Assembly: GCA_013373105.1 (NCBI GenBank)
Contig: JABXIJ010000013.1
Coordinates: 56,212-120,211, forward strand
Origin: Flavobacteriaceae bacterium
GTDB taxonomy: Bacteria > Bacteroidota > Bacteroidia > Flavobacteriales > Flavobacteriaceae
Length of the DNA: 64,000 bases
Reading direction: 5' to 3'
Of the stretch, positions 24,107-41,391 are shown one piece after another. The notes below the pieces were generated by a model. The model made no database searches. It saw nothing but the letters and a program-made list of their open reading frames with translations, and had not been told where the DNA came from. The position numbers and the translations under genes are program-made. Numbering within the stretch: position 1 is the stretch's first letter; every line of letters begins with the position of its first letter.

Positions 24107-24505
24107 ATGAAAATTTTATCTGAGTATCCAACAGAAGTTTTAGTATTACTTTTTTTAATTATTACTTTTTTACAATCGGGTATAGACAAATTAATTGATT
24201 GGAAAGGAAATCTTGATTTTATTAAAGATCATTTTAAAAACTCACCATTAAAAAATAGCGTACCATTATTACTTGCAATTATTTTAGTTCTAGAAATTTT
24301 TGCTGGTTTACTAATGGCTTTTGGAGTTTATCAACTGTATACATCAGGTGCAAAAGAAATTGCATTATTAGGTGTAGAGCTTTCTGCAGTAACTTTAATA
24401 TTTTTGTTAATCGGTCAACGTCTTGCAAAAGATTATGCAGGAGCCATGAGTTTAGCAGTCTATTTTATAATTACTCTTTGGGGTGTTTATTTACTAAATA
24501 GTTAA
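24107..24505 (+). CDS. DoxX-like membrane protein
   Basis: Four predicted TM segments; FLQSGIDKLIDWKGNLDFIKDHFKNSPL. Confidence 0.75.
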   Translation: MKILSEYPTEVLVLLFLIITFLQSGIDKLIDWKGNLDFIKDHFKNSPLKNSVPLLLAIILVLEIFAGLLMAFGVYQLYTSGAKEIALLGVELSAVTLIFLLIGQRLAKDYAGAMSLAVYFIITLWGVYLLNS

Positions 24506-24549
24506 TAGCTATACTTTTTAAAAATACTATAAATTTAAACTATAAATTA

Positions 24550-24581
24550 AGCTCTTAAAATTTGCGTTTTAAGAGCTTTTT
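24550..24581. terminator. rho-independent terminator
   Basis: AGCTCTTAAAA-TTTGCG-TTTTAAGAGCT followed by TTTT. Confidence 0.8.
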
Positions 24582-24645
24582 GTTTTTTAGCAAGGTATTT
24601 CCTTTGGTTTTGGGAATTATGTTTAAATAAGTTGGTTTAAATAAG

Positions 24646-25506
24646 TTATTTATCCTTTTTCAGCACATAAATGAGTGATGAGTATTCCTTTGTAGTGTTT
24701 GCTTTTAAATTTGAGATAAATCCTTTGTAAAAACCACGAATTGGTTTTATGCTGCCTGTTTTGTATTTCTCACTTAAAAACGAAACATAAAACGAATCAA
24801 ATTTCATTGGTAATGTTTTTTCAATTTTCATATTTACCAAAGAAAATAATTTGTGAATACTATTTTGTGAGAAGTGCCAGAGGTGTCTTGGAACATCAAA
24901 AGCTGCCCAATATTCTTTATAAAAATTAGCATCGTAACTTTTAAAGTTTGGAACAGCAATTATTATTCTTCCATCGTTTTTTAAAAGTTTGTGTAGCTCA
25001 ATAATATAATCTTGTAAATTTTCTACATGCTCTAAAACATGCCAAAGTGTAATTACATCGAACTTTTTATTCTCTAGACTTGTTAAATTTTCAACTAGTT
25101 CTATACGTTTTTTTTGGGCAATATTTCTAGCTCCTAAATCTGGTTCAGATCCAAATACATTCCAAGAATTATTTTTACAGGCTTTTAAAAAGTCTCCTGT
25201 TCCTGCTCCTACATCTAAAATAGTTTTAGAAGAAGTTTTAAAGGAGTTTATCAATTTTAACTTTCTTTTTAAAGTAATACCTTTTACAACTTGATACACT
25301 TTATCAAAAAGAGATTTTTTTGAATCTGTATGAGATATATAATTTTCGCTTTTATAATAATCTTTTAAGTTTTTTGGAACAGGAGTTGTAACTAGCATAT
25401 CAAATTCATTATTGTAATTTAATTGATATACTTCTCCAGAAACTGTATAATCTTTACAACTAAAACAAGGTTCTAAATCTTTATAAAAGTCAATCTTTTT
25501 ATTCAT
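24646..25506 (-). CDS. class I SAM-dependent methyltransferase
   Basis: ILDVGAGTGDFLKACKNN, FDVITLWHVLEHVENLQDYI. Confidence 0.88.
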   Translation of the reverse strand: MNKKIDFYKDLEPCFSCKDYTVSGEVYQLNYNNEFDMLVTTPVPKNLKDYYKSENYISHTDSKKSLFDKVYQVVKGITLKRKLKLINSFKTSSKTILDVGAGTGDFLKACKNNSWNVFGSEPDLGARNIAQKKRIELVENLTSLENKKFDVITLWHVLEHVENLQDYIIELHKLLKNDGRIIIAVPNFKSYDANFYKEYWAAFDVPRHLWHFSQNSIHKLFSLVNMKIEKTLPMKFDSFYVSFLSEKYKTGSIKPIRGFYKGFISNLKANTTKEYSSLIYVLKKDK

Positions 25507-25517
25507 AAAAAATAAAT

Positions 25518-25533
25518 TGTTCCACGAGGAACA
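25518..25533. promoter_or_regulatory. parS-like ParB binding site
   Basis: TGTTCCACGAGGAACA; 15/16 match to TGTTCCACGTGGAACA; intergenic between mnmG and methyltransferase. Confidence 0.65.
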
Positions 25534-25553
25534 TCTGTAAAATTTGAGTGAGA

Positions 25554-27431
25554 TTATCTACCCATATGAACTAGCAAAACAGAAATATCACTAGGTGAAA
25601 CTCCACTAATTCTACTAGCCTGAGAAATTGATGTAGGTTGAATTTTACTTAACTTTTCTCTAGCTTCATAAGATAAAGATTTAACTTTTTGAAAATTAAA
25701 TCCACTTGGTATTCTTACATTCTCTAGCCTGTTAAGTTTATCTGCATTGTTCTTTTCCTTTTCTATATAACCAGAATACTTTAAATGTATTTCTACTTGC
25801 TCTATTATTTCTGAATCAATATTATTTTCCGAAATAAAACTTTCTAAAACCTTTAAGTTTTTAAAGTCAGAAAAACTTAATTGTGGTCTTGCAGCAATTT
25901 TAAATAGTTTCATTGATTGGTTTACAAGTGCTAAATTTTTAGACTCTAAAATAGGGTTCATGTCTTCTTTCTTTACACTAGTTTCTTTTAAGAAATTAAT
26001 CAACAATGCTGTTTTTTCTCTTTTTTCTTTAACTCTATCTAAACGTTCTTTACTTGCTAAACCTAACTCAAAAGATTTTTCAGTTAAACGTAAATCAGCA
26101 TTATCTTGTCTTAATAATGTACGATATTCTGCCCTAGAAGTAAACATTCTATAAGGTTCTTCTGTACCTTTTGTTATTAAGTCATCTATTAAAACTCCTA
26201 TATAAGCTTCGTTTCTTTTTAAAATAAAGGGATCTTTATTTTTAACTTTTAGAGCAGCATTTACACCAGCCATTAAGCCTTGGGCAGCTGCTTCTTCATA
26301 TCCTGTGGTTCCATTTATTTGGCCAGCAAAATATAAGTTTTTAATTAGCTTTGTTTCTAAAGAATGAGTCAATTGTGTAGGTGGAAAATAATCGTATTCA
26401 ATAGCATAACCATACCTAAAGAATTTTACATTTTCAAACCCAGGTATTGCTCTTATAGCTCTATCTTGAATATCTTCTGGTAATGATGTTGAAAATCCAT
26501 TCACATAAATTTCTACAGTATTCCAGCCTTCTGGTTCTACAAATATTTGATGCCTATCTTTTGTGACAAACCTATCTATTTTATCTTCAACAGATGGGCA
26601 ATATCTAGGTCCTGTAGATTGTATTCTACCGTTAAACATCGGCGATCTATCAAACCCTTCACGAAGTAAGTTATGAACTTCATTATTCGTATATGTTAAA
26701 TAACAAGAACGCTGTTTTGTAAGTGGTTTTGTAGTTGGTAAGTAAGAAAACTTTTCAGTGATTTCATCTCCTGGTTGTTCAGTCATTTTAGAATAATCTA
26801 AAGACCTACCATCTACCCTTGGAGGTGTACCTGTTTTCATTCGCCCTGCTTCAAATCCTTTTGCAACTAAATCTTCTGTAATTCCTCTTGAAGCTCCTTC
26901 TCCAGCTCTACCTCCTCCAAATGTTTTTTCTCCTATGTGAATTAATCCATTTAAAAAAGTTCCTGCTGTTATAATAACAGTTTTTGCTTTTATATCTAAT
27001 CCTAATGCAGTTTTAACACCAACAATTTTATCTTCTTCAAAAATTAACCCATTAACAGAATCTTGGTAAAAGTCTAAATTTTCAGTTTGCTCTAACATAT
27101 TACGCCAACATTCTGCAAACTGCATTCTATCAGATTGCGCTCTTGGACTCCACATTGCTGGTCCTTTAGACTTGTTAAGCATTTTAAACTGAATAGCTGT
27201 TTTATCTGTAACAATTCCACTATAACCACCAAGAGCATCTATTTCTCTTACAATTTGCCCTTTTGCAATTCCTCCCATTGCAGGATTACAACTCATTTGA
27301 GCAATGTTTTGCAAATTCATGGTTATAAGTAATGTATGAGCGCCCATGTTTGCTGCTGCTGCTGCTGCTTCACTGCCTGCATGACCTCCTCCTACTACTA
27401 TAACATCATATGTTGTATTGTATAAACTCAT
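25554..27431 (-). CDS. mnmG: tRNA uridine-5-carboxymethylaminomethyl modification enzyme MnmG (GidA)
   Basis: YDVIVVGGGHAGSEAAAAAANMGA, CNPAMGGIAKGQIVREIDALGG, GYEEAAAQGLMAGVNAAL. Confidence 0.97.
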   Translation of the reverse strand: MSLYNTTYDVIVVGGGHAGSEAAAAAANMGAHTLLITMNLQNIAQMSCNPAMGGIAKGQIVREIDALGGYSGIVTDKTAIQFKMLNKSKGPAMWSPRAQSDRMQFAECWRNMLEQTENLDFYQDSVNGLIFEEDKIVGVKTALGLDIKAKTVIITAGTFLNGLIHIGEKTFGGGRAGEGASRGITEDLVAKGFEAGRMKTGTPPRVDGRSLDYSKMTEQPGDEITEKFSYLPTTKPLTKQRSCYLTYTNNEVHNLLREGFDRSPMFNGRIQSTGPRYCPSVEDKIDRFVTKDRHQIFVEPEGWNTVEIYVNGFSTSLPEDIQDRAIRAIPGFENVKFFRYGYAIEYDYFPPTQLTHSLETKLIKNLYFAGQINGTTGYEEAAAQGLMAGVNAALKVKNKDPFILKRNEAYIGVLIDDLITKGTEEPYRMFTSRAEYRTLLRQDNADLRLTEKSFELGLASKERLDRVKEKREKTALLINFLKETSVKKEDMNPILESKNLALVNQSMKLFKIAARPQLSFSDFKNLKVLESFISENNIDSEIIEQVEIHLKYSGYIEKEKNNADKLNRLENVRIPSGFNFQKVKSLSYEAREKLSKIQPTSISQASRISGVSPSDISVLLVHMGR

Positions 27432-27436
27432 CTTTA

Positions 27437-27452
27437 TGTTTCACGTGAAACT
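27437..27452. promoter_or_regulatory. parS-like ParB binding site
   Basis: TGTTTCACGTGAAACT; 15/16 match to TGTTTCACGTGAAACA, directly upstream of mnmG. Confidence 0.8.
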
Positions 27453-27458
27453 TTAACG

Positions 27459-27887
27459 TTATTTATCTGATTTACTGTTATTTAGAATGTTTAAAGCGTT
27501 GTTTTCTTCATTTCGCATCAAAATCTGTTCTTCCTCTGTTTTATCTTTAAAACCAAGGTAATGTAGAACACCATGGATCATTACTCTATTGAGTTCTTCA
27601 TTAAAAGTAACATTGTATTCTGAAGCATTTTCTTTTACTCTTTCTATTGAAATAAAAATATCCCCAGATATAATTTTACCTACTGTATTGTCGAAACTTA
27701 TAATATCAGTTAACGTATCATGATTAAGGAACTCTACATTAAGTTTGTGTAAATATTCATCATCACAAAAAATGTAATTGATTTCGCCAACTTTACAATT
27801 CTTGTTTTTAATGATGGTTTCAACCCAATTACGTAATTCATCTTCATTAGGTAAAATGAAGTTGGTTTCATAATTAAACTCAATCAT
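27459..27887 (-). CDS. ybeY: rRNA maturation RNase YbeY
   Basis: FCDDEYLHKLNVEFLNHDTLTDIISFD, MIHGVLHYLGFKDKTEEE zinc site. Confidence 0.94.
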   Translation of the reverse strand: MIEFNYETNFILPNEDELRNWVETIIKNKNCKVGEINYIFCDDEYLHKLNVEFLNHDTLTDIISFDNTVGKIISGDIFISIERVKENASEYNVTFNEELNRVMIHGVLHYLGFKDKTEEEQILMRNEENNALNILNNSKSDK

Positions 27888-27888
27888 A

Positions 27889-30800
27889 TTACTCTTTCTT
27901 TTGATCAGAAAAATATGCTCTAACCTTTTTTTTATAAATTTGCTGCAAAGGTAATGATTGTCTATTTAATATTTCTATTTGATTGTAAAACTGCTTTTTA
28001 AATTGAAGTGCTTTTACTTTATTGCGCTCAAAAACTTTTTTATTTGCTTCTGACTTTCGTTTTTTATCTTTTCCTTGTTGAAGTTTAGCAGTGTCTAATT
28101 TTAATAACTCATAGTTAAGATTTTGCATCTTTTGGAGTGTAGCTCTATTAAACCCTTTTTCTAAAATTTCGTTTTCTAGTTCCTCCATTTTTTTTAATGC
28201 TTTTTTTGCATTAGAGTTTGCTCCTGGATTTTCAGATTCATTCTCTTGTATTGCGTCCTGAAGTTGTTGTCTTAATTGACTTTGCTGTTTAAAAATCTCA
28301 AACAATTCACCATCTAAATCTTCATTTGAATTAATTGATTCACATTGTTTTTTCCCGTTATTGTTTTCATTAGGCTTATCACCTTCTTTGCCATCACTTT
28401 TCTTTTCTCCTTTTTCTAAACCTTTTTGCATTTTTTCTGAAAGGTTTTCTTGTTTCTTTATTAAGTCTGGCAGGGTAAATCCATTTTGTTTTTTTGGTTT
28501 TCCTTTTCCCATTTTCATAGACATATTATTTTTCATATTATTTAAAATATTACTTAAATAATCTGCTAAATTGTTTGCGGCTGTTATAACATATCGTTGA
28601 TTAGAAATACCAGTATTAAATCTATTTTCTGTGAAATTATATAATGATTGGTCTAAGTTATAATGTGCAGATGAAAGATCGTCTTGAATGGTTGTGGATA
28701 TTTTTGGAACACGCATTGAGAGCACATATAAACTATCGTCAATATGTTCAAAATAGGTTTTAATTTCATTTTGTTTTTTTAAGTCTTTACCAAAATCTGG
28801 GTGTGATGTAGAAATTTCTGAAAAGGTTTTCATTAACTGCTCTTGTTGAAAAGAAAAGATGATTAAATTTTCTAGTATTTTTCTTAGATCATCCATGTTT
28901 TCTTCCATAGATTCTCCTTGCATTTCCATCATTTGTTGTTGCATTTTAGCACTCATCTCCTTCATTTTTTTGGATGATTGCTTTTGACTTTGCTTTGCTT
29001 GTTTACTATTTTGTTGTTTTAACTCTTCTTCAGATTTAGTTAAAGCATTATCAACTTCCTTTTCATCATTTTTAACATCTGGAAGCTCTAATGGCTCTTT
29101 AAGCTTTTCATTATCTTTATTAAGCTCATCTAGCTCTTTTTTTATCTCGTTAAATTCTTCTTTAATTTTATTTTGTTCTGCTAAAGTTGAGTTTTCCTTT
29201 TTAGCAACTTCTTCTTGTTTTTTAGATAGTTCGTCTATTTTATTTGCAATTTGCATGGTTTTTTGCTCTACATAGAACCTTTTCACCATTTCTAAGGTCT
29301 TTTCTAAACTTCGTTGTTGCTGACGATTTTGTTGTGCTAATTCTTTCGCTTTTTGAACTAAATCTTCTTTATTGAGCTTGTCTGCCATTTTTTGAATTTC
29401 ATATAAAAGGCGTTGCTGTTTTTCTAGTTTTTTTAGTTCTTTTATGCGTTCTTTTAAATCTTCTTTCTTTTCTTGAAGTGATGGTTCTTTTTCTTGTTTT
29501 TCGTCTAAATTTTCTTCTAATTTATCGGTTTGACGTTGCATCATTTGCTTATATTGCTCTTGACGCTTAATAAAGTTATCAATCTTCTTTTTATCGTTCC
29601 AATTTAAATTCTTTTTATTCTGAAGTTCTTGCTGAATTTCATCTAATTGTTGTTGTTGTTTTTCTTGTTTTTGTAGTGAGTTTTCGATGTTTTGAATGGT
29701 ATTCCTTTGTTCTTCTAAAAATTCTTGCTCTAGCTCTTCATCTGTTTTTTGACGATAACTAAACACTTTACTTTTTGCTGATTTGTTGCCATTTACTCCA
29801 TCATTGTCAAAAACTTGAAAATACATTTCATAATTAACACCCTTTTGTAATTCTACATTATTTGGAAATTGAAAAAAGAACGTTTGAATATTTTCTTTGC
29901 TAAGGTTTAAACTAATTTGTTTTTTTAACGTTGGTCTATCTTCATCATAATAAACAAAATTTAATTTTTTTAGCCCATAATCATCTGATATTTGGCCAGC
30001 AAACTGAGCAGTTCCACGTGAAATACTATCAATATCTGAAGTAACTGAAATAATTGGAAACTCATCTTTTACAACATCAATAGCATATTGCAGACTTTCA
30101 TAGTCTTTTAGGTTTGTGTTAGATGAGGTAATTTGATAGTTAACTCCTATTAAAATATTTTTTGTATAGTTGAAGCTATTCTCATCAATTTTTGAAAAAT
30201 AATCTCTTGATGCGTTTGTGATAAAGGCAAGACTATCTGTTTGAATTGTTGTGGCTTTCCAAGTAACTTTTGTTCCTACAGGAATGGTTAAGTTGGCTGT
30301 ATTTTGTATAACTTCATCCTTTCTTTTAGTATAATTAGGATAATCTAATTCTAAAACTATTGAATTGATTGTAGGTGTTTTAATTACATTTAATTCATAA
30401 GTTTTAGACTGTACATTATTAGCTTCTAAATAAAAACTGATATTATTTTGTACTTCTGAAAAGGTAAAAGAAAAAGTGTTTGGTGTGGTCTTTTGTAAAT
30501 AATAAGTTTGATTATCGTAAAATATTTTTACCTCTTCTGGTATACTAGAACCAATAACTTTAAAAGTAATCTCAAATGTATTTCCTTGAATAGTTTTTAG
30601 ATTAGTGGTTTCTAAAACAAAAGAAAAAGGAGCTGGTGGTTCATAAGCAGTTCTATAATCTACTACTCGTTTTAAACTATCTCCTAAAGATGCGTTAGTA
30701 ACTGTAAATAAACTAATTAGGTAAACTAAAACAGGAATTAAAGCAAACTTTATATACTTTTTATTTTCTTTAAAATCAATAGCTTTTATAAAAGGGATGG

Positions 30801-31209
30801 GTTGTAATTCTAAAGATTTTTGTTCTATACTAGCAAGAATTAAATCTGAATTATATGCTGTATTTTTTAACTGTAAAACATTTAAAAGTTTGTCTTTAAC
30901 TTCAGGAAAATGATTGCCAATAATTTTTGATGATTCATCAAACGTTATTCCTTCTTTAAAGCCTATCAATTTAACAATTGGATAAACAATAAATCTTAGA
31001 AACAAAAAGGTTTCAAAAGCAATGAATAAGATAAATAAAATTGTTCTTGCAGAGGGTTTTAGCCAAAGAAAGTATTCAATAAATAGAATACAAAACAAAT
31101 AAAGTGCTCCAATAGAAAAAAACAAAATACTTCCTTTGATCAATTCGTTAGTGTAGTATTTCCTTGAGAATTGATGAAGTTTTTGTTCTATTTTTTTGTA
31201 CGATTCCAT
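27889..31209 (-). CDS. DUF4175-like large membrane protein with K/E/Q-rich coiled coil
   Basis: N-terminal TM helices, Ig-like region, then long KQEKQQQQLDEIQQELQ coiled coil. Confidence 0.8.
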   Translation of the reverse strand: MESYKKIEQKLHQFSRKYYTNELIKGSILFFSIGALYLFCILFIEYFLWLKPSARTILFILFIAFETFLFLRFIVYPIVKLIGFKEGITFDESSKIIGNHFPEVKDKLLNVLQLKNTAYNSDLILASIEQKSLELQPIPFIKAIDFKENKKYIKFALIPVLVYLISLFTVTNASLGDSLKRVVDYRTAYEPPAPFSFVLETTNLKTIQGNTFEITFKVIGSSIPEEVKIFYDNQTYYLQKTTPNTFSFTFSEVQNNISFYLEANNVQSKTYELNVIKTPTINSIVLELDYPNYTKRKDEVIQNTANLTIPVGTKVTWKATTIQTDSLAFITNASRDYFSKIDENSFNYTKNILIGVNYQITSSNTNLKDYESLQYAIDVVKDEFPIISVTSDIDSISRGTAQFAGQISDDYGLKKLNFVYYDEDRPTLKKQISLNLSKENIQTFFFQFPNNVELQKGVNYEMYFQVFDNDGVNGNKSAKSKVFSYRQKTDEELEQEFLEEQRNTIQNIENSLQKQEKQQQQLDEIQQELQNKKNLNWNDKKKIDNFIKRQEQYKQMMQRQTDKLEENLDEKQEKEPSLQEKKEDLKERIKELKKLEKQQRLLYEIQKMADKLNKEDLVQKAKELAQQNRQQQRSLEKTLEMVKRFYVEQKTMQIANKIDELSKKQEEVAKKENSTLAEQNKIKEEFNEIKKELDELNKDNEKLKEPLELPDVKNDEKEVDNALTKSEEELKQQNSKQAKQSQKQSSKKMKEMSAKMQQQMMEMQGESMEENMDDLRKILENLIIFSFQQEQLMKTFSEISTSHPDFGKDLKKQNEIKTYFEHIDDSLYVLSMRVPKISTTIQDDLSSAHYNLDQSLYNFTENRFNTGISNQRYVITAANNLADYLSNILNNMKNNMSMKMGKGKPKKQNGFTLPDLIKKQENLSEKMQKGLEKGEKKSDGKEGDKPNENNNGKKQCESINSNEDLDGELFEIFKQQSQLRQQLQDAIQENESENPGANSNAKKALKKMEELENEILEKGFNRATLQKMQNLNYELLKLDTAKLQQGKDKKRKSEANKKVFERNKVKALQFKKQFYNQIEILNRQSLPLQQIYKKKVRAYFSDQKKE
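30010..30025. promoter_or_regulatory. weaker parS-like site inside DUF4175 gene
   Basis: AGTTCCACGTGAAATA; 14/16 match to TGTTCCACGTGAAACA. Confidence 0.5.
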
Positions 31210-31320
31210 AATTGAAACCTAAAAATAATGCATTTTAAAGAACTATAAACCAAATAATTGTTAAAACAAAATGTAAGTATTCTAAAAAAACGCCTACTAA
31301 GCATAAAAGAATTCAAAACC

Positions 31321-32169
31321 ATGAAACAATTAGCCAAATTAATCATTATAATATTTTCATTATCATCGTTTTCACAAAGTCCTTGGACTCAAGAAATAGG
31401 AAAGTATTACACACAAATTTCATATACTTCAATATCAAACTATTCAACCCTTTTTGGAGATCCAGATTATAACACAGAAAGAGAAATTACAGATAGAACT
31501 ATTCAGTTTTTTGCTGAATATGGTTTAAGTGGTAAAACTTCGTTACTTGTAAATATTCCCTTTAAAATGATTAGAACTGGAGATTTAGCAACTATGTCTG
31601 GTATAAATGTATTACCTCCTGCAATTACAATTAGTGATACTAAAAACAGTCTTGGTAACATAGAGGTTGGTATAAAACATAATTTCTACAAAAAAGATTG
31701 GGTATTGTCTGGACAATTATCAGTTGAAGCAAATACTAGTAGTTACAACAATGCATCAGGAATTAGAACAGGATATAATGCTTGGTCATTTACTCCAATG
31801 TTTTTAGCAGGTAGAGGCTTTGGTAAAACCTATATTCAGGCATTTGTTGGGGCACACATAAGAACTAATAATTATAGCTCAAATTTTAGATTTGGTGGTG
31901 AAATTGGTAGAAAATTTTTTAATAGTGTTTGGGTAATTGGCTTTTTTGATGTCTCTTCTTCATTAAAAAATGGTAATATCAATTTATCTGCAGAAAATAT
32001 AGCAACAGGTTTGTATGTAAACGATCAAGAGTTTGGTGCTTATGGTTTAAAAGCAATTCTAGAATTTACGAATAGTTTTGGAATTAATGCAGGTTATGGT
32101 GGTGCTTTTTCTGGAAATAATGTTGCCAAAAGAGCAGCATTAAGCTTTGGTTTATATCAAAAATTTTAA
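31321..32169 (+). CDS. hypothetical secreted/outer-membrane protein
   Basis: Signal peptide MKQLAKLIIIIFSLSSFSQ; alternating beta-barrel-like C-terminus ending ...LSFGLYQKF. Confidence 0.7.
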   Translation: MKQLAKLIIIIFSLSSFSQSPWTQEIGKYYTQISYTSISNYSTLFGDPDYNTEREITDRTIQFFAEYGLSGKTSLLVNIPFKMIRTGDLATMSGINVLPPAITISDTKNSLGNIEVGIKHNFYKKDWVLSGQLSVEANTSSYNNASGIRTGYNAWSFTPMFLAGRGFGKTYIQAFVGAHIRTNNYSSNFRFGGEIGRKFFNSVWVIGFFDVSSSLKNGNINLSAENIATGLYVNDQEFGAYGLKAILEFTNSFGINAGYGGAFSGNNVAKRAALSFGLYQKF

Positions 32170-35981: not shown

Positions 35982-38183
35982 CTAATCTTCAATAAGATCA
36001 AAATCTAGATGTTTGCGTTCTAAGTCTGTTTTTTTAACTTTAACTTTTACATCATCTCCTAATTGATATAAGTGTTTTGTGGCTTGCCCAACAATAGCAT
36101 ATTGTTCTTCGTCAAAAATATAATAATCGCTTTTAATATCTCTAATTCTAACCATTCCTTCACATTTATTCTTGGTAATTTCAACATAAATTCCCCATTC
36201 TGTAACACCTGTAATTACTCCTTCAAATACTTCATCTTTATGATCTTGCATGTATTTTACTTGCATGTATTTTATAGAATCTCGTTCTGCTTTTGAGGCT
36301 AATTCTTCGCGTTTTGAAGAATGTTTACAACATTCTTCATAAACTTCTTGTTTAGGCTGACTTCCTCCATCTAAATAATGCTGTAATAAACGATGTGTCA
36401 TAACATCTGGATAACGCCTTATTGGTGATGTAAAGTGACTATAATAATCGAAAGCTAAACCATAATGACCAATATTAAATGTAGTATATTCTGCTTTAGA
36501 CATAGATCTAATAGTTAAAGTTTCTATCATATTAGATTCTGCTTTACCATGCACATCACTTAATAATTTATTTAAAGAATCTGAAGTTGCTTCTCTAGTT
36601 GTTGTATCTATTTTATAACCAAATTTACTAATGATGTTTTGTAAAGAAGCTAATTTTTCTACATCTGGTTCATCATGAACTCTATATACAAATGTTTTAT
36701 TTGTAGGTCTTCCACCTTTACCTTTTCCAATGAATTCAGCTACTTTTTTATTAGCTAATAACATGAATTCTTCAATTAATTTATTTGCGTCTTTTGCTTC
36801 TTTAAAATATACTCCTATTGGATCTGCATGTTCATTTAAATTAAACTTCACTTCTACTCTATCAAAAGAAATTGCACCAGCTTTCATGCGTTTTTTTCTC
36901 ATGATTTTTGCAAGCTCATCAAGTTTTAAAATTGCTTCTACAATAGCATCATCTACAGTATATTCTTGTCCTGTTAAAGAAACATTTGCAGGAATACTAT
37001 TGTTTTTATTTTCTATAATAACTTGTGCTTCTTCATAAGCAAAACGTTGATCTGAATAGGTTACAGTTCTTCCAAACCATTGCTTTTTTAAGTTTGCATT
37101 CTCATCAATTTCAAATACTGCAGAAAAAGTTAATTTTTCTTCATTAGGTCTTAATGAACAAACTCCATTTGATAGCATTTCTGGTAACATTGGTACTACT
37201 CTATCTACTAAATAAACTGATGTTGCTCTACTGTAAGCTTCTTCATCTAAAATTGTTTTAGGCTGAACATAATGTGAAACATCTGCAATATGAATTCCTA
37301 TTTCATAATTACCATTTTCTAGTTTTTTAAATGATAGAGCATCATCGAAATCTTTAGCATCTTTCGGGTCGATAGTAAAAGTTAAATCACCTCTCATATC
37401 TCTACGTTTAGCAATTTCTTCGTTTGTTATTTCTGTTAATAATTGCTTAGCATCTTCTTCTACTTCTTTTGGAAATTCGTAAGGTAAATCATACTCTAAT
37501 AAAATAGAATGCATTTCTGTATTATGATCTCCTGGTTTTCCTAAAACTTTAGTTATTTTTCCAAATGGATTTTTAGAATTTTCTGGCCAATCTATAATAG
37601 TTGCTTGCACTTTATCACCATGTTCAGCTCCATTTAATTTACTTTGTGATATAAAAATATCAACATACATTTTTGTACTGTCTGGTAATACAAATCCGAA
37701 GTTTTTATTCATTTGTAAAACTCCAACAAAATCTGTTTTAGCACGTTCTATAATTTCTACAACATCTGCTTCTAATTTATTAGATCTTCTTTTTTTATAT
37801 ACATAAACACGAACAACATCGCCATGTAAACCTTTTCCTAAATTTACATTAGGAACAAAAATATCTTGATCGTAATCGTCTGAAATAAAATAAGCATTTC
37901 CATTAGATGTAGCATCTAAAGTGCCTATAGAATATTTTCTATCTTCATTAACTTGAAATTTACCTCTATCTACTTCTAGTATTTTTTTTGATGCTGTTAG
38001 TTCAGTTAATTTTTTTAAAATTTGGGTTTTACCATCAGTATCTGAAATACCCATTTTTGCAGCAATTTGTTTATAATTGTAGTTTTTGTTACTGTCTTCA
38101 TTTAAGATTTTAAAGATATTTCTAGTTAAATCTTTAATTACTCTTCCTTTCTTTTTGTAATGATTTTTTTTCTTTCTTGGCAT
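35982..38183 (-). CDS. rnr: ribonuclease R
   Basis: DLTFTIDPKDAKDFDDALSFKKLENGNYEIGIHIADVSHYV; HFTSPIRRYPDVMTHRLL; S1 domain at C-terminus. Confidence 0.96.
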   Translation of the reverse strand: MPRKKKNHYKKKGRVIKDLTRNIFKILNEDSNKNYNYKQIAAKMGISDTDGKTQILKKLTELTASKKILEVDRGKFQVNEDRKYSIGTLDATSNGNAYFISDDYDQDIFVPNVNLGKGLHGDVVRVYVYKKRRSNKLEADVVEIIERAKTDFVGVLQMNKNFGFVLPDSTKMYVDIFISQSKLNGAEHGDKVQATIIDWPENSKNPFGKITKVLGKPGDHNTEMHSILLEYDLPYEFPKEVEEDAKQLLTEITNEEIAKRRDMRGDLTFTIDPKDAKDFDDALSFKKLENGNYEIGIHIADVSHYVQPKTILDEEAYSRATSVYLVDRVVPMLPEMLSNGVCSLRPNEEKLTFSAVFEIDENANLKKQWFGRTVTYSDQRFAYEEAQVIIENKNNSIPANVSLTGQEYTVDDAIVEAILKLDELAKIMRKKRMKAGAISFDRVEVKFNLNEHADPIGVYFKEAKDANKLIEEFMLLANKKVAEFIGKGKGGRPTNKTFVYRVHDEPDVEKLASLQNIISKFGYKIDTTTREATSDSLNKLLSDVHGKAESNMIETLTIRSMSKAEYTTFNIGHYGLAFDYYSHFTSPIRRYPDVMTHRLLQHYLDGGSQPKQEVYEECCKHSSKREELASKAERDSIKYMQVKYMQDHKDEVFEGVITGVTEWGIYVEITKNKCEGMVRIRDIKSDYYIFDEEQYAIVGQATKHLYQLGDDVKVKVKKTDLERKHLDFDLIED

Positions 38184-38295: not shown

Positions 38296-39198
38296 ATGAT
38301 AAATTCTTGGTTTGTAATTGCAAATCCAACTTCAGGTAATAAAAATTTTACAGAAAACTGGAAGTATATTAAACAACAATTAACAATTAGTAATATTGAT
38401 TTTGCCTCTGCTTTTACAGAATTCAGTTCTCATGAAATTGATCTTGTTCAAGAAGCAATAAAAAAAGGGTATAGAAAATTCTTAGCTGTTGGTGGAGATG
38501 GAACTTTACATCATGTAGTTAATGGTATTATGCATCAAAAAGAGGTTAAAACTACTGATATTACTGTTGGTGTAATTCCTTTAGGTACAGGAAATGATTG
38601 GATTAAAACCTATAATATTCCTAATAATATTGAAAATGCTATAGAAATTATTTTACAAAACAAAACCACATTACAAGATATTGGTGAGCTTTTCTCTAAT
38701 TTAAAAACCAGGTATTTTGCTAATTCTGCTGGTTTAGGTTACGATGCTTATGTAGTTCATAAATTAAATAAATTAAAACCTTTTGGTTCTTTAAGTTATT
38801 TAATTGCAGGTGCTTATGGTTTATTTTTCTATAAAAAATCTAAATACACCATTTTTATAAACAATAAAAAAATTAATTATAAGTGTTTAATGGTATTCTT
38901 TGGTATTTGTAAATTTTCTGGAAATGGAATGCAATTTACTACTAATGTTAATCCTAAAGATGGGTTATTAGATATTAGTATTGTTAAAAATTTTACGTTT
39001 TTAAATTTACTATTAAACCTCTCTAAACTTTACGATGGTTCTATTGTACATCATAAAAAAGTAGTTACTTATAAATCTAAAGAAATTAAAATTATACCTC
39101 ATAAAAAAACAAGAATTCAAGCAGATGGCGAATTAGTAGATATAGGTGAAGTAACTGTAAAAATTATTCCAGAAGCTATAAACTTTATTACAAATTGA
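38296..39198 (+). CDS. diacylglycerol kinase family lipid kinase
   Basis: WFVIANPTSGNKNF, AVGGDGTLHHVVNGI, GVIPLGTGNDWIKTY. Confidence 0.9.
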   Translation: MINSWFVIANPTSGNKNFTENWKYIKQQLTISNIDFASAFTEFSSHEIDLVQEAIKKGYRKFLAVGGDGTLHHVVNGIMHQKEVKTTDITVGVIPLGTGNDWIKTYNIPNNIENAIEIILQNKTTLQDIGELFSNLKTRYFANSAGLGYDAYVVHKLNKLKPFGSLSYLIAGAYGLFFYKKSKYTIFINNKKINYKCLMVFFGICKFSGNGMQFTTNVNPKDGLLDISIVKNFTFLNLLLNLSKLYDGSIVHHKKVVTYKSKEIKIIPHKKTRIQADGELVDIGEVTVKIIPEAINFITN

Positions 39199-39280: not shown

Positions 39281-39391
39281 ATGAAAAACCTCCGCAAAAT
39301 AATAGCTTTATTCGCCTGTATTTTTATTATAGGCATCTACCTTATTGTAAATTCAGTAAACAAATCTTTAAAAGAAAAACAACCTACATAA
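39281..39391 (+). CDS. small membrane protein (36 aa) followed by in-frame extension after a TAA
   Basis: MKNLRKIIALFACIFIIGIYLIVNSVNKSLKEKQPT*; the same frame continues KTVQIQKDTTYLLKAEKKTKTV* to 39460. Confidence 0.5.
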   Translation: MKNLRKIIALFACIFIIGIYLIVNSVNKSLKEKQPT

Positions 39392-39466
39392 AAAACAGTT
39401 CAGATTCAAAAAGACACTACTTATCTTTTAAAAGCTGAAAAGAAAACTAAAACAGTTTAACTTCTT

Positions 39467-39767
39467 TTATTAACATTCTTTATTATTATTATTTTTCTTT
39501 TTAAAATTTTTAAACCTCTATTATGTTTATAATAGTTTGTGAATAGGTACAGTAAATTTATTAAAGATTTCTTTTATTTATGATTTATTAAATTTAATTG
39601 ACAATTTATAAGACTATTAAACTATTAAAAATCAATAAAAAAAATACCTTATCAACAATTGTTATTAACATTAATTGACATCCTTTTTTTAATAATTTTA
39701 AAAATTTCTATGTAAATAAATTGTAAATTTTATGTTGATAAACTTTTATGAAAAATCAATAAAAAAA
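39467..39767. other. candidate replication-origin-like region (AT-rich, clustered TTATYAACA motifs, 17-bp direct repeat)
   Basis: TTATTAACA 39467, TTATCAACA 39649, TTATTAACA 39662, TGTTGATAA 39733; AAAAATCAATAAAAAAA at 39627-39643 and 39751-39767. Confidence 0.35.
39627..39767. repeat. 17-bp direct repeat pair
   Basis: AAAAATCAATAAAAAAA at 39627-39643 and 39751-39767. Confidence 0.8.
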
Positions 39768-39978
39768 TTTGCTTTTTAAGAATTCATATTTGTGTTGTAA
39801 TAATTTTGAAATATACCAAATAAAGTTTCTAATAAATTATAATAAGTTCTTAACAATAACTTAAAACATGTAAATCTTTCAAAATTAAATAGTTATTAAA
39901 AACCAAGTATTTTTAATTGTTTATAACTGATTTTACCTGTTAATTTCTCTATTTTTGTACTTAATAATTCAATTAATT

Positions 39979-40413
39979 ATGACAATAGCAATTGGTAATG
40001 ATCATGCAGGAACAGAATATAAGTTCGAAATTATAAAACATTTAGAAAATAAAGGATATACTGTTTTAAATTTTGGAACAGATTCTAATGATTCTATGGA
40101 TTATCCAGATGCTATTCATCCTACTGCAGATGCTGTTGAATCTGGTAAAGCTACTTTAGGAATCATACTATGTGGTTCTGGAAATGGAGCACAAATGACA
40201 GCGAATAAACACCAAGGAATTAGAGCTGCTTTATGTTGGAATAAAGAATTGGTTAAATTAACAAGACAACATAACAACGCTAATATTTTAACCATTCCAG
40301 CTCGTTTTGTTTCATTACAACAAGCTATTGGTTTTGTAGATGTATTTTTAAATACAGAATTCGAAGGTGGGCGTCATCAAAATAGAGTTAATAAAATTTC
40401 CTGCGCTGGTTAA
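39979..40413 (+). CDS. rpiB: ribose-5-phosphate isomerase B
   Basis: IAIGNDHAGTEYKFEIIKHLENKGY; GIILCGSGNGAQMTANKHQGIRAALCW. Confidence 0.95.
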   Translation: MTIAIGNDHAGTEYKFEIIKHLENKGYTVLNFGTDSNDSMDYPDAIHPTADAVESGKATLGIILCGSGNGAQMTANKHQGIRAALCWNKELVKLTRQHNNANILTIPARFVSLQQAIGFVDVFLNTEFEGGRHQNRVNKISCAG

Positions 40414-40853: not shown

Positions 40854-40863
40854 TTTAATATCA

Positions 40864-41253
40864 TTAAATACATTCAGCATTTAATTTTTCTAATTCTTTT
40901 TTAATTTCAATTCTTGTTGAGGTATCAATTAAAGCAAGATTTATTTTAAGTTCTTTATTTGTTGTTTTTAAAATAAATTCACCTCCATAATGTTTTATTT
41001 TAATAATATCTTTTTTTAATAATTTCTTACCAAACCACCAATTTTTTCGAATAAAAGTATTATCAATGGTAATATAGTTATAATGTTTCCTGTAGAAGTA
41101 AATACCTAAATAAATAATAGCAAAAATAAACCAACTATAATCATACCATTTTGGATTTTCATTAAAGAAAGTTTGAAAAACAGCATTTGCTAACCATACT
41201 AACCCTAAAAATAAGCTAATATTTAATTGTTTTTTACTAAAAGAAAATTTCAT
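40864..41253 (-). CDS. hypothetical membrane protein
   Basis: Two TM segments followed by a soluble beta-rich domain. Confidence 0.6.
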   Translation of the reverse strand: MKFSFSKKQLNISLFLGLVWLANAVFQTFFNENPKWYDYSWFIFAIIYLGIYFYRKHYNYITIDNTFIRKNWWFGKKLLKKDIIKIKHYGGEFILKTTNKELKINLALIDTSTRIEIKKELEKLNAECI

Positions 41254-41391
41254 GATTAAATTTAAATAAAAAAAATTAAACTTCTTTTTTTGTTGATAAT
41301 AAACTAAATCTTAAAAAAATAACTTTAGTTTAAATCTTAGTTTTTTGTAACTTACATCACTTTTAAAAAATCAAAAATTTTAATATAATTT

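Follow-up and report, generated by a model that had tools for sequence, protein, structure and literature searches.

A box array between rnr and rpiB, remote from dnaA, is very probably the chromosomal replication origin of a Polaribacter relative

The DNA analysed here, a 64-kb stretch (hereafter the window), comes from a 120-kb contig in a 2.37-Mb draft genome of 69 contigs. By RpiB sequence, the nearest named relatives were Polaribacter first, then Tenacibaculum and Lutibacter. The locus of interest is an AT-rich noncoding interval with the following neighbours:

35982..38183, minus strand: rnr (RNase R), left flank of the proposed origin, conserved family-wide
38296..39198, plus strand: YegS/diacylglycerol-kinase-like lipid kinase gene, left neighbour of the proposed origin
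39979..40413, plus strand: rpiB (PF02502), ATG at 39979, right flank of the proposed origin

Both rnr and rpiB are oriented away from the locus, and this layout, with the interval between them, reaches other Flavobacteriaceae. The lipid kinase gene is absent or displaced in many relatives. In some it lies 1.9–4 kb from rpiB and in others it has gone from there, with the box array described below still adjoining rpiB. In one further relative, the kinase reading frame has decayed and the box array is intact. A small ORF (39281–39391, plus strand; MKNLRKIIALFA..., 36 codons) is located between the kinase gene and the array. Most relatives carry a longer version (~55–60 codons), the C-terminal part of which is still recognisable here downstream of an in-frame stop.

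The first-pass annotation had proposed a replication origin in this interval, based in part on four copies of TTATYAACA. All four were recovered (39467+, 39649+, 39662+ and 39733−). However, both the number of boxes and their consensus required revision, as the motif is better written TTATNAACA, which occurs six times within 460 bp (39467+, 39524−, 39649+, 39662+, 39733− and 39918−). The features of the array, with their conservation across 24 species, are as follows:

39467..39960, no strand: very probable oriC, an AT-rich noncoding box array that starts with the leftmost box and ends at the rpiB promoter, supported by the 24-species alignment, the lowest GC and a skew minimum nearby in relatives
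39467..39475, plus strand: putative DnaA box 1, TTATTAACA, a box in 22/24 species
39524..39532, minus strand: putative DnaA box 2, TTATAAACA, a box in 12/24 species
39649..39657, plus strand: putative DnaA box 3, TTATCAACA, a box in 20/24 species (TTATTAACA in 19 relatives)
39662..39670, plus strand: putative DnaA box 4, TTATTAACA, 13 bp from box 3, a box in 22/24 species
39671..39732, no strand: AT-rich segment on which boxes 3/4 and box 5 converge, a candidate duplex unwinding element
39733..39741, minus strand: putative DnaA box 5, TTATCAACA, a box in 24/24 species
39918..39926, minus strand: putative DnaA box 6, TTATAAACA, a box in 14/24 species

A further box neighbouring box 6, at 39928 on the minus strand, is kept in 19/24 species and has been lost in the window. 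Box 2 is followed by a conserved TGTGAATAG, the reverse of which, CTATTCACA, is one base off a canonical box. No canonical TTATNCACA box was found at the locus, nor in the kinase–rpiB gaps of any of the 24 species.

The composition of the interval was as extreme as the earlier description had it. The GC content of the locus is 15–18%, and the 560-bp stretch starting at 39421 (15.4% GC) is the lowest of any in the window. The least stable 400-bp duplex of the window starts at 39466 and low-stability 200-bp stretches begin at 39468 and 39690. An easily melted AT-rich segment, as expected of an oriC, is thus present beside the boxes by both composition and computed duplex stability. Across the 64-kb window, the TTATNAACA array was the only cluster of at least three boxes within 500 bp. 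Elsewhere in the window, AT-rich intergenic DNA contained 0–1 boxes per stretch, even where the GC content was the same (40854–41391, 18.2%). A motif density matching that of such regions, named beforehand as evidence against an origin, was therefore not seen.

To place the array in an evolutionary context, the orthologous kinase–rpiB gap was compared among 23 relatives and the genome itself (24 species; 531–1156 bp each, 15–22% GC). The gap was alignable over its right-hand 500 bp, and the syntenic alignment that had been proposed as a check revealed a strongly conserved noncoding box array with seven orthologous box positions (39467+, 39524−, 39649+, 39662+, 39733−, 39918− and 39928−). Each species carried 4–7 copies of TTATNAACA, giving 136 in 20.5 kb of gap DNA versus 2 for the reversed control. 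TTATCAACA was among the most strongly enriched 9-mers of the gaps and the most frequent of those, with 48 copies versus 0.8 expected and representation in 24/24 species. The same enrichment was apparent in the rpiB-upstream regions of 80 family members (292 TTATNAACA versus 30 reversed). Conversely, no TTATNAACA cluster of at least four within 500 bp was detected in 2.38 Mb of other DNA sampled from five relatives. The tandem pair TTATNAACA-4-TTATNAACA occurs once in the genome, and was found at this locus in 11/15 genomes, with two stray sites elsewhere. With a GC content of only 15–18%, AT-rich words might be expected to cluster by chance; yet when these 561 bp were simulated with Markov models of order 1 and order 2, the copies contained 0.11–0.16 TTATYAACA on average versus the 4 seen, and 0/4000 copies had four. 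Together with the reversed-word counts and the orthologous box positions, these controls refute chance clustering, the probability of which we consider negligible. The cluster of boxes in noncoding DNA, another property expected of an oriC, is therefore above chance, its boxes being of the TTATNAACA variant.

Three further elements were mapped within or at the edge of the array:

39627..39643, plus strand: 17-bp repeat, left copy, with the AAATCAAT core kept in most relatives
39751..39767, plus strand: 17-bp repeat, right copy, with the identical sequence in few relatives
39950..39957, plus strand: TATTTTTG, promoter −7-like element, conserved in the alignment of relatives

The 17-bp direct repeat AAAAATCAATAAAAAAA is present at 39627 and 39751, as previously noted, has no third copy in the window and sits inside a longer 44-bp repeat (80% identical). 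In most relatives the right copy has not been kept; it is therefore probably not an essential part of the locus, and an iteron function for the repeat was ruled out on the same grounds. AATCAATA also occurs ~120 bp before dnaA in the genus. The element AATCAAT(A), which may be the site of a shared regulator, is conserved in the origin, immediately to the left of the paired boxes, as well as in the promoter of dnaA across the genus. TATTTTTG fits the Bacteroidetes promoter −7 element, TAnnTTTG, and is the probable rpiB promoter, bounding the origin on its right.

The presence of this promoter-like element before rpiB, with the box positions 39918 and 39928 just upstream of it, raises the question of whether the interval instead belongs to rpiB, to the kinase or to the small ORF upstream, as conserved regulatory DNA or as a structured RNA. 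However, a simple promoter would not extend over 500 bp of conserved sequence and have boxes on both strands, the box array persists where the gene to its left has been lost, moved or has decayed, and the GC skew presented below would be left unexplained. A structured RNA was rejected, given no Rfam match and a fold no better than shuffled sequence (z = 0.73). We regard a regulatory or RNA role in place of an origin as highly improbable.

We further investigated the relationship between TTATYAACA and known DnaA boxes. TTATCCACA is the high-affinity DnaA box of Escherichia coli (PMC8287927). In the genera compared, the outermost box lies ~470–620 bp before rpiB and is followed by a recognisable AT block. 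In Polaribacter and Tenacibaculum, this box is mostly TTATCAACA or TTATTAACA. At the orthologous position (that of box 1), Algibacter, Wocania and Flaviramulus carry TTATCCACA and Mangrovimonas carries TTATTCACA. A TTATCCACA is also found in Xanthomarina, where its distance from rpiB corresponds. It is from these canonical boxes at the orthologous outermost position in related genera that we identify TTATYAACA as the putative DnaA box of this lineage, the best evidence here being substitution at one orthologous site. The genome encodes an intact DnaA with its DNA-binding domain IV, another expected component of an oriC system. Domain IV carries RDHATVLHA in all relatives, including the genera with TTATCCACA. 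Because domain IV is the same in genera using either box, no co-variation of DnaA and box was found, and altered DnaA specificity was ruled out as the cause of the box variant.

Comparison with characterised systems revealed both likeness and difference. As in E. coli oriC, 9-bp boxes occur in both orientations within AT-rich DNA and several related genera retain TTATCCACA at the outermost position. In contrast, the flanks and spacing are not the same, and position 6 is A rather than the C of TTATCCACA in all full-match Polaribacter-type oriC boxes. The tandem box pair beside AT-rich DNA resembles the basal unwinding system of DnaA boxes and DnaA-trios (PMC8287927), although the trio pattern (.A.) is too loose to be informative in 80% AT DNA.

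An origin should also coincide with a switch in GC skew. Skew was fitted on 20-kb stretches sampled in five complete relatives, with a gene-strand term. An origin at the locus was favoured in every genome (t = 5.75, 3.34, 7.96, 11.89 and 6.77), whereas an origin at dnaA gave negative values in the same five (t = −1.53, −1.39, −2.38, −4.40 and −3.44). The best-fitting skew origin fell 1.9–6.5% of the chromosome away from the locus, at a resolution of tens to hundreds of kb, and the cumulative skew maximum fell 44–52% round the circle. Thus, in all five relatives the skew minimum, the check put forward initially, was near the locus rather than at dnaA, and the maximum fell about halfway round the chromosome. 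On the 120-kb contig itself, skew at fourfold sites agreed on the left side of the locus but failed to agree on the right side, which has small counts.

The earlier observation that dnaA is not adjacent was also correct, the gene being on another contig. In 12 complete genomes, dnaA was 0.83–1.70 Mb (29–41% of the chromosome) from the array. An oriC beside dnaA is a common arrangement, not a defining one, and it is absent here. No TTATNAACA cluster was present at dnaA, only a single canonical promoter box; this and the negative skew fit in all five genomes ruled out an origin at dnaA. The promoter box, TTATTCACA, lies ~80 bp before the dnaA start codon in 11/11 Polaribacter-type loci with upstream sequence. 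It was also seen before dnaA in Tenacibaculum soleae and not in the other genera tested. Such a box would fit both autoregulation and a DnaA still able to read the canonical box.

In an alternative reading, the origin would be a short distance to the left, beside mnmG or the parS-like sites, and the array would bind DnaA in a secondary role (titration or datA/DARS-like). In almost every genome examined mnmG is ~7–20 kb from the array (~70 kb in some), distances below the skew resolution. Furthermore, Ori-Finder 2022 calls adjacent to mnmG have been published for two other Flavobacteriaceae: in Mariniflexile, where dnaA did not match the skew, oriC was placed by mnmG (PMC11278836), and in Algorimicrobium it was likewise called beside mnmG (PMC12843772). 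The parS-like cluster reported previously was confirmed, with three matches to TGTTTCACGTGAAACA (at most 3 mismatches; 0.38 expected) at 25518, 27437 and 30010. They lie at 25.5–30 kb of the window, 10–14 kb left of the array, and are grouped around mnmG and ybeY, one having a single mismatch. However, parS sites are usually near oriC yet outside it. The mnmG region of the window (24400–31400) contained no TTATNAACA or TTATNCACA box, whereas the array between rnr and rpiB is the only box cluster of the window and is held in place across genera. We therefore consider an origin beside mnmG or parS very unlikely.

The published calls and the array share a family and a chromosomal neighbourhood; they differ in that the array lies between rnr and rpiB, with the mnmG of this window ~12 kb off and boxless. 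Because mnmG is ~7–70 kb from the array and without boxes in the window, the mnmG label of those calls is probably a neighbourhood marker, as judged from genomes other than Mariniflexile and Algorimicrobium.

Taken together, the conserved array, the finding of canonical boxes at its orthologous outermost position in other genera and the skew of relatives support the origin first suggested between the lipid kinase gene and rpiB, and we conclude that positions 39467–39960 are very probably the chromosomal replication origin, oriC, of this Polaribacter relative. The kind of oriC is already known, namely a Bacteroidetes oriC far from dnaA. A dnaA remote from oriC has been stated to be common in Bacteroidetes and was reported for Prevotella intermedia (PMC4755523). 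The locus resembles such origins, including DoriC predictions, in being a noncoding DnaA-box cluster at the skew switch with dnaA far away. It differs from them in species, in its rnr and rpiB flanks and in having TTATNAACA boxes where theirs match the E. coli box. DoriC may already list a predicted origin for complete Polaribacter genomes. Literature searches found no experimentally mapped Polaribacter or Tenacibaculum origin, and the box variant and precise oriC anatomy appear undescribed in the literature searched. An ordinary oriC with a lineage-specific box spelling is a well-supported description of the locus.

In the proposed mechanism, DnaA would occupy the TTATNAACA array, forming an initiation complex from three groups of boxes: 39467+ and 39524− on the left, the convergent 39649+, 39662+ and 39733− in the centre, and 39918− on the right. 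By analogy with characterised origins, DnaA at the central boxes would open the DNA, most likely in the AT-rich sequence that separates or adjoins these boxes. Helicase would then be loaded and two forks would depart from this presumed start, leftward via rnr and rightward via rpiB. The contrast between an all-variant origin and one canonical box in the dnaA promoter also prompts a tentative idea, an affinity ladder in which DnaA might shut off its own gene via the strong promoter box and the origin might fire once the weaker TTATNAACA array fills.

Among the complete relatives analysed, at least four have their numbering start at dnaA, ~1/3 of the chromosome off the proposed origin. Because of this distance, assuming that dnaA marks the origin would mislead replichore, gene-dosage and growth-rate (peak-to-trough) analyses of this abundant marine group. 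The rnr–oriC–rpiB landmark provides an alignable, base-level origin for Flavobacteriaceae that is usable in draft genomes. It also offers material for testing DnaA recognition of TTATNAACA, for which the genera that keep TTATCCACA in this position provide a natural comparison.
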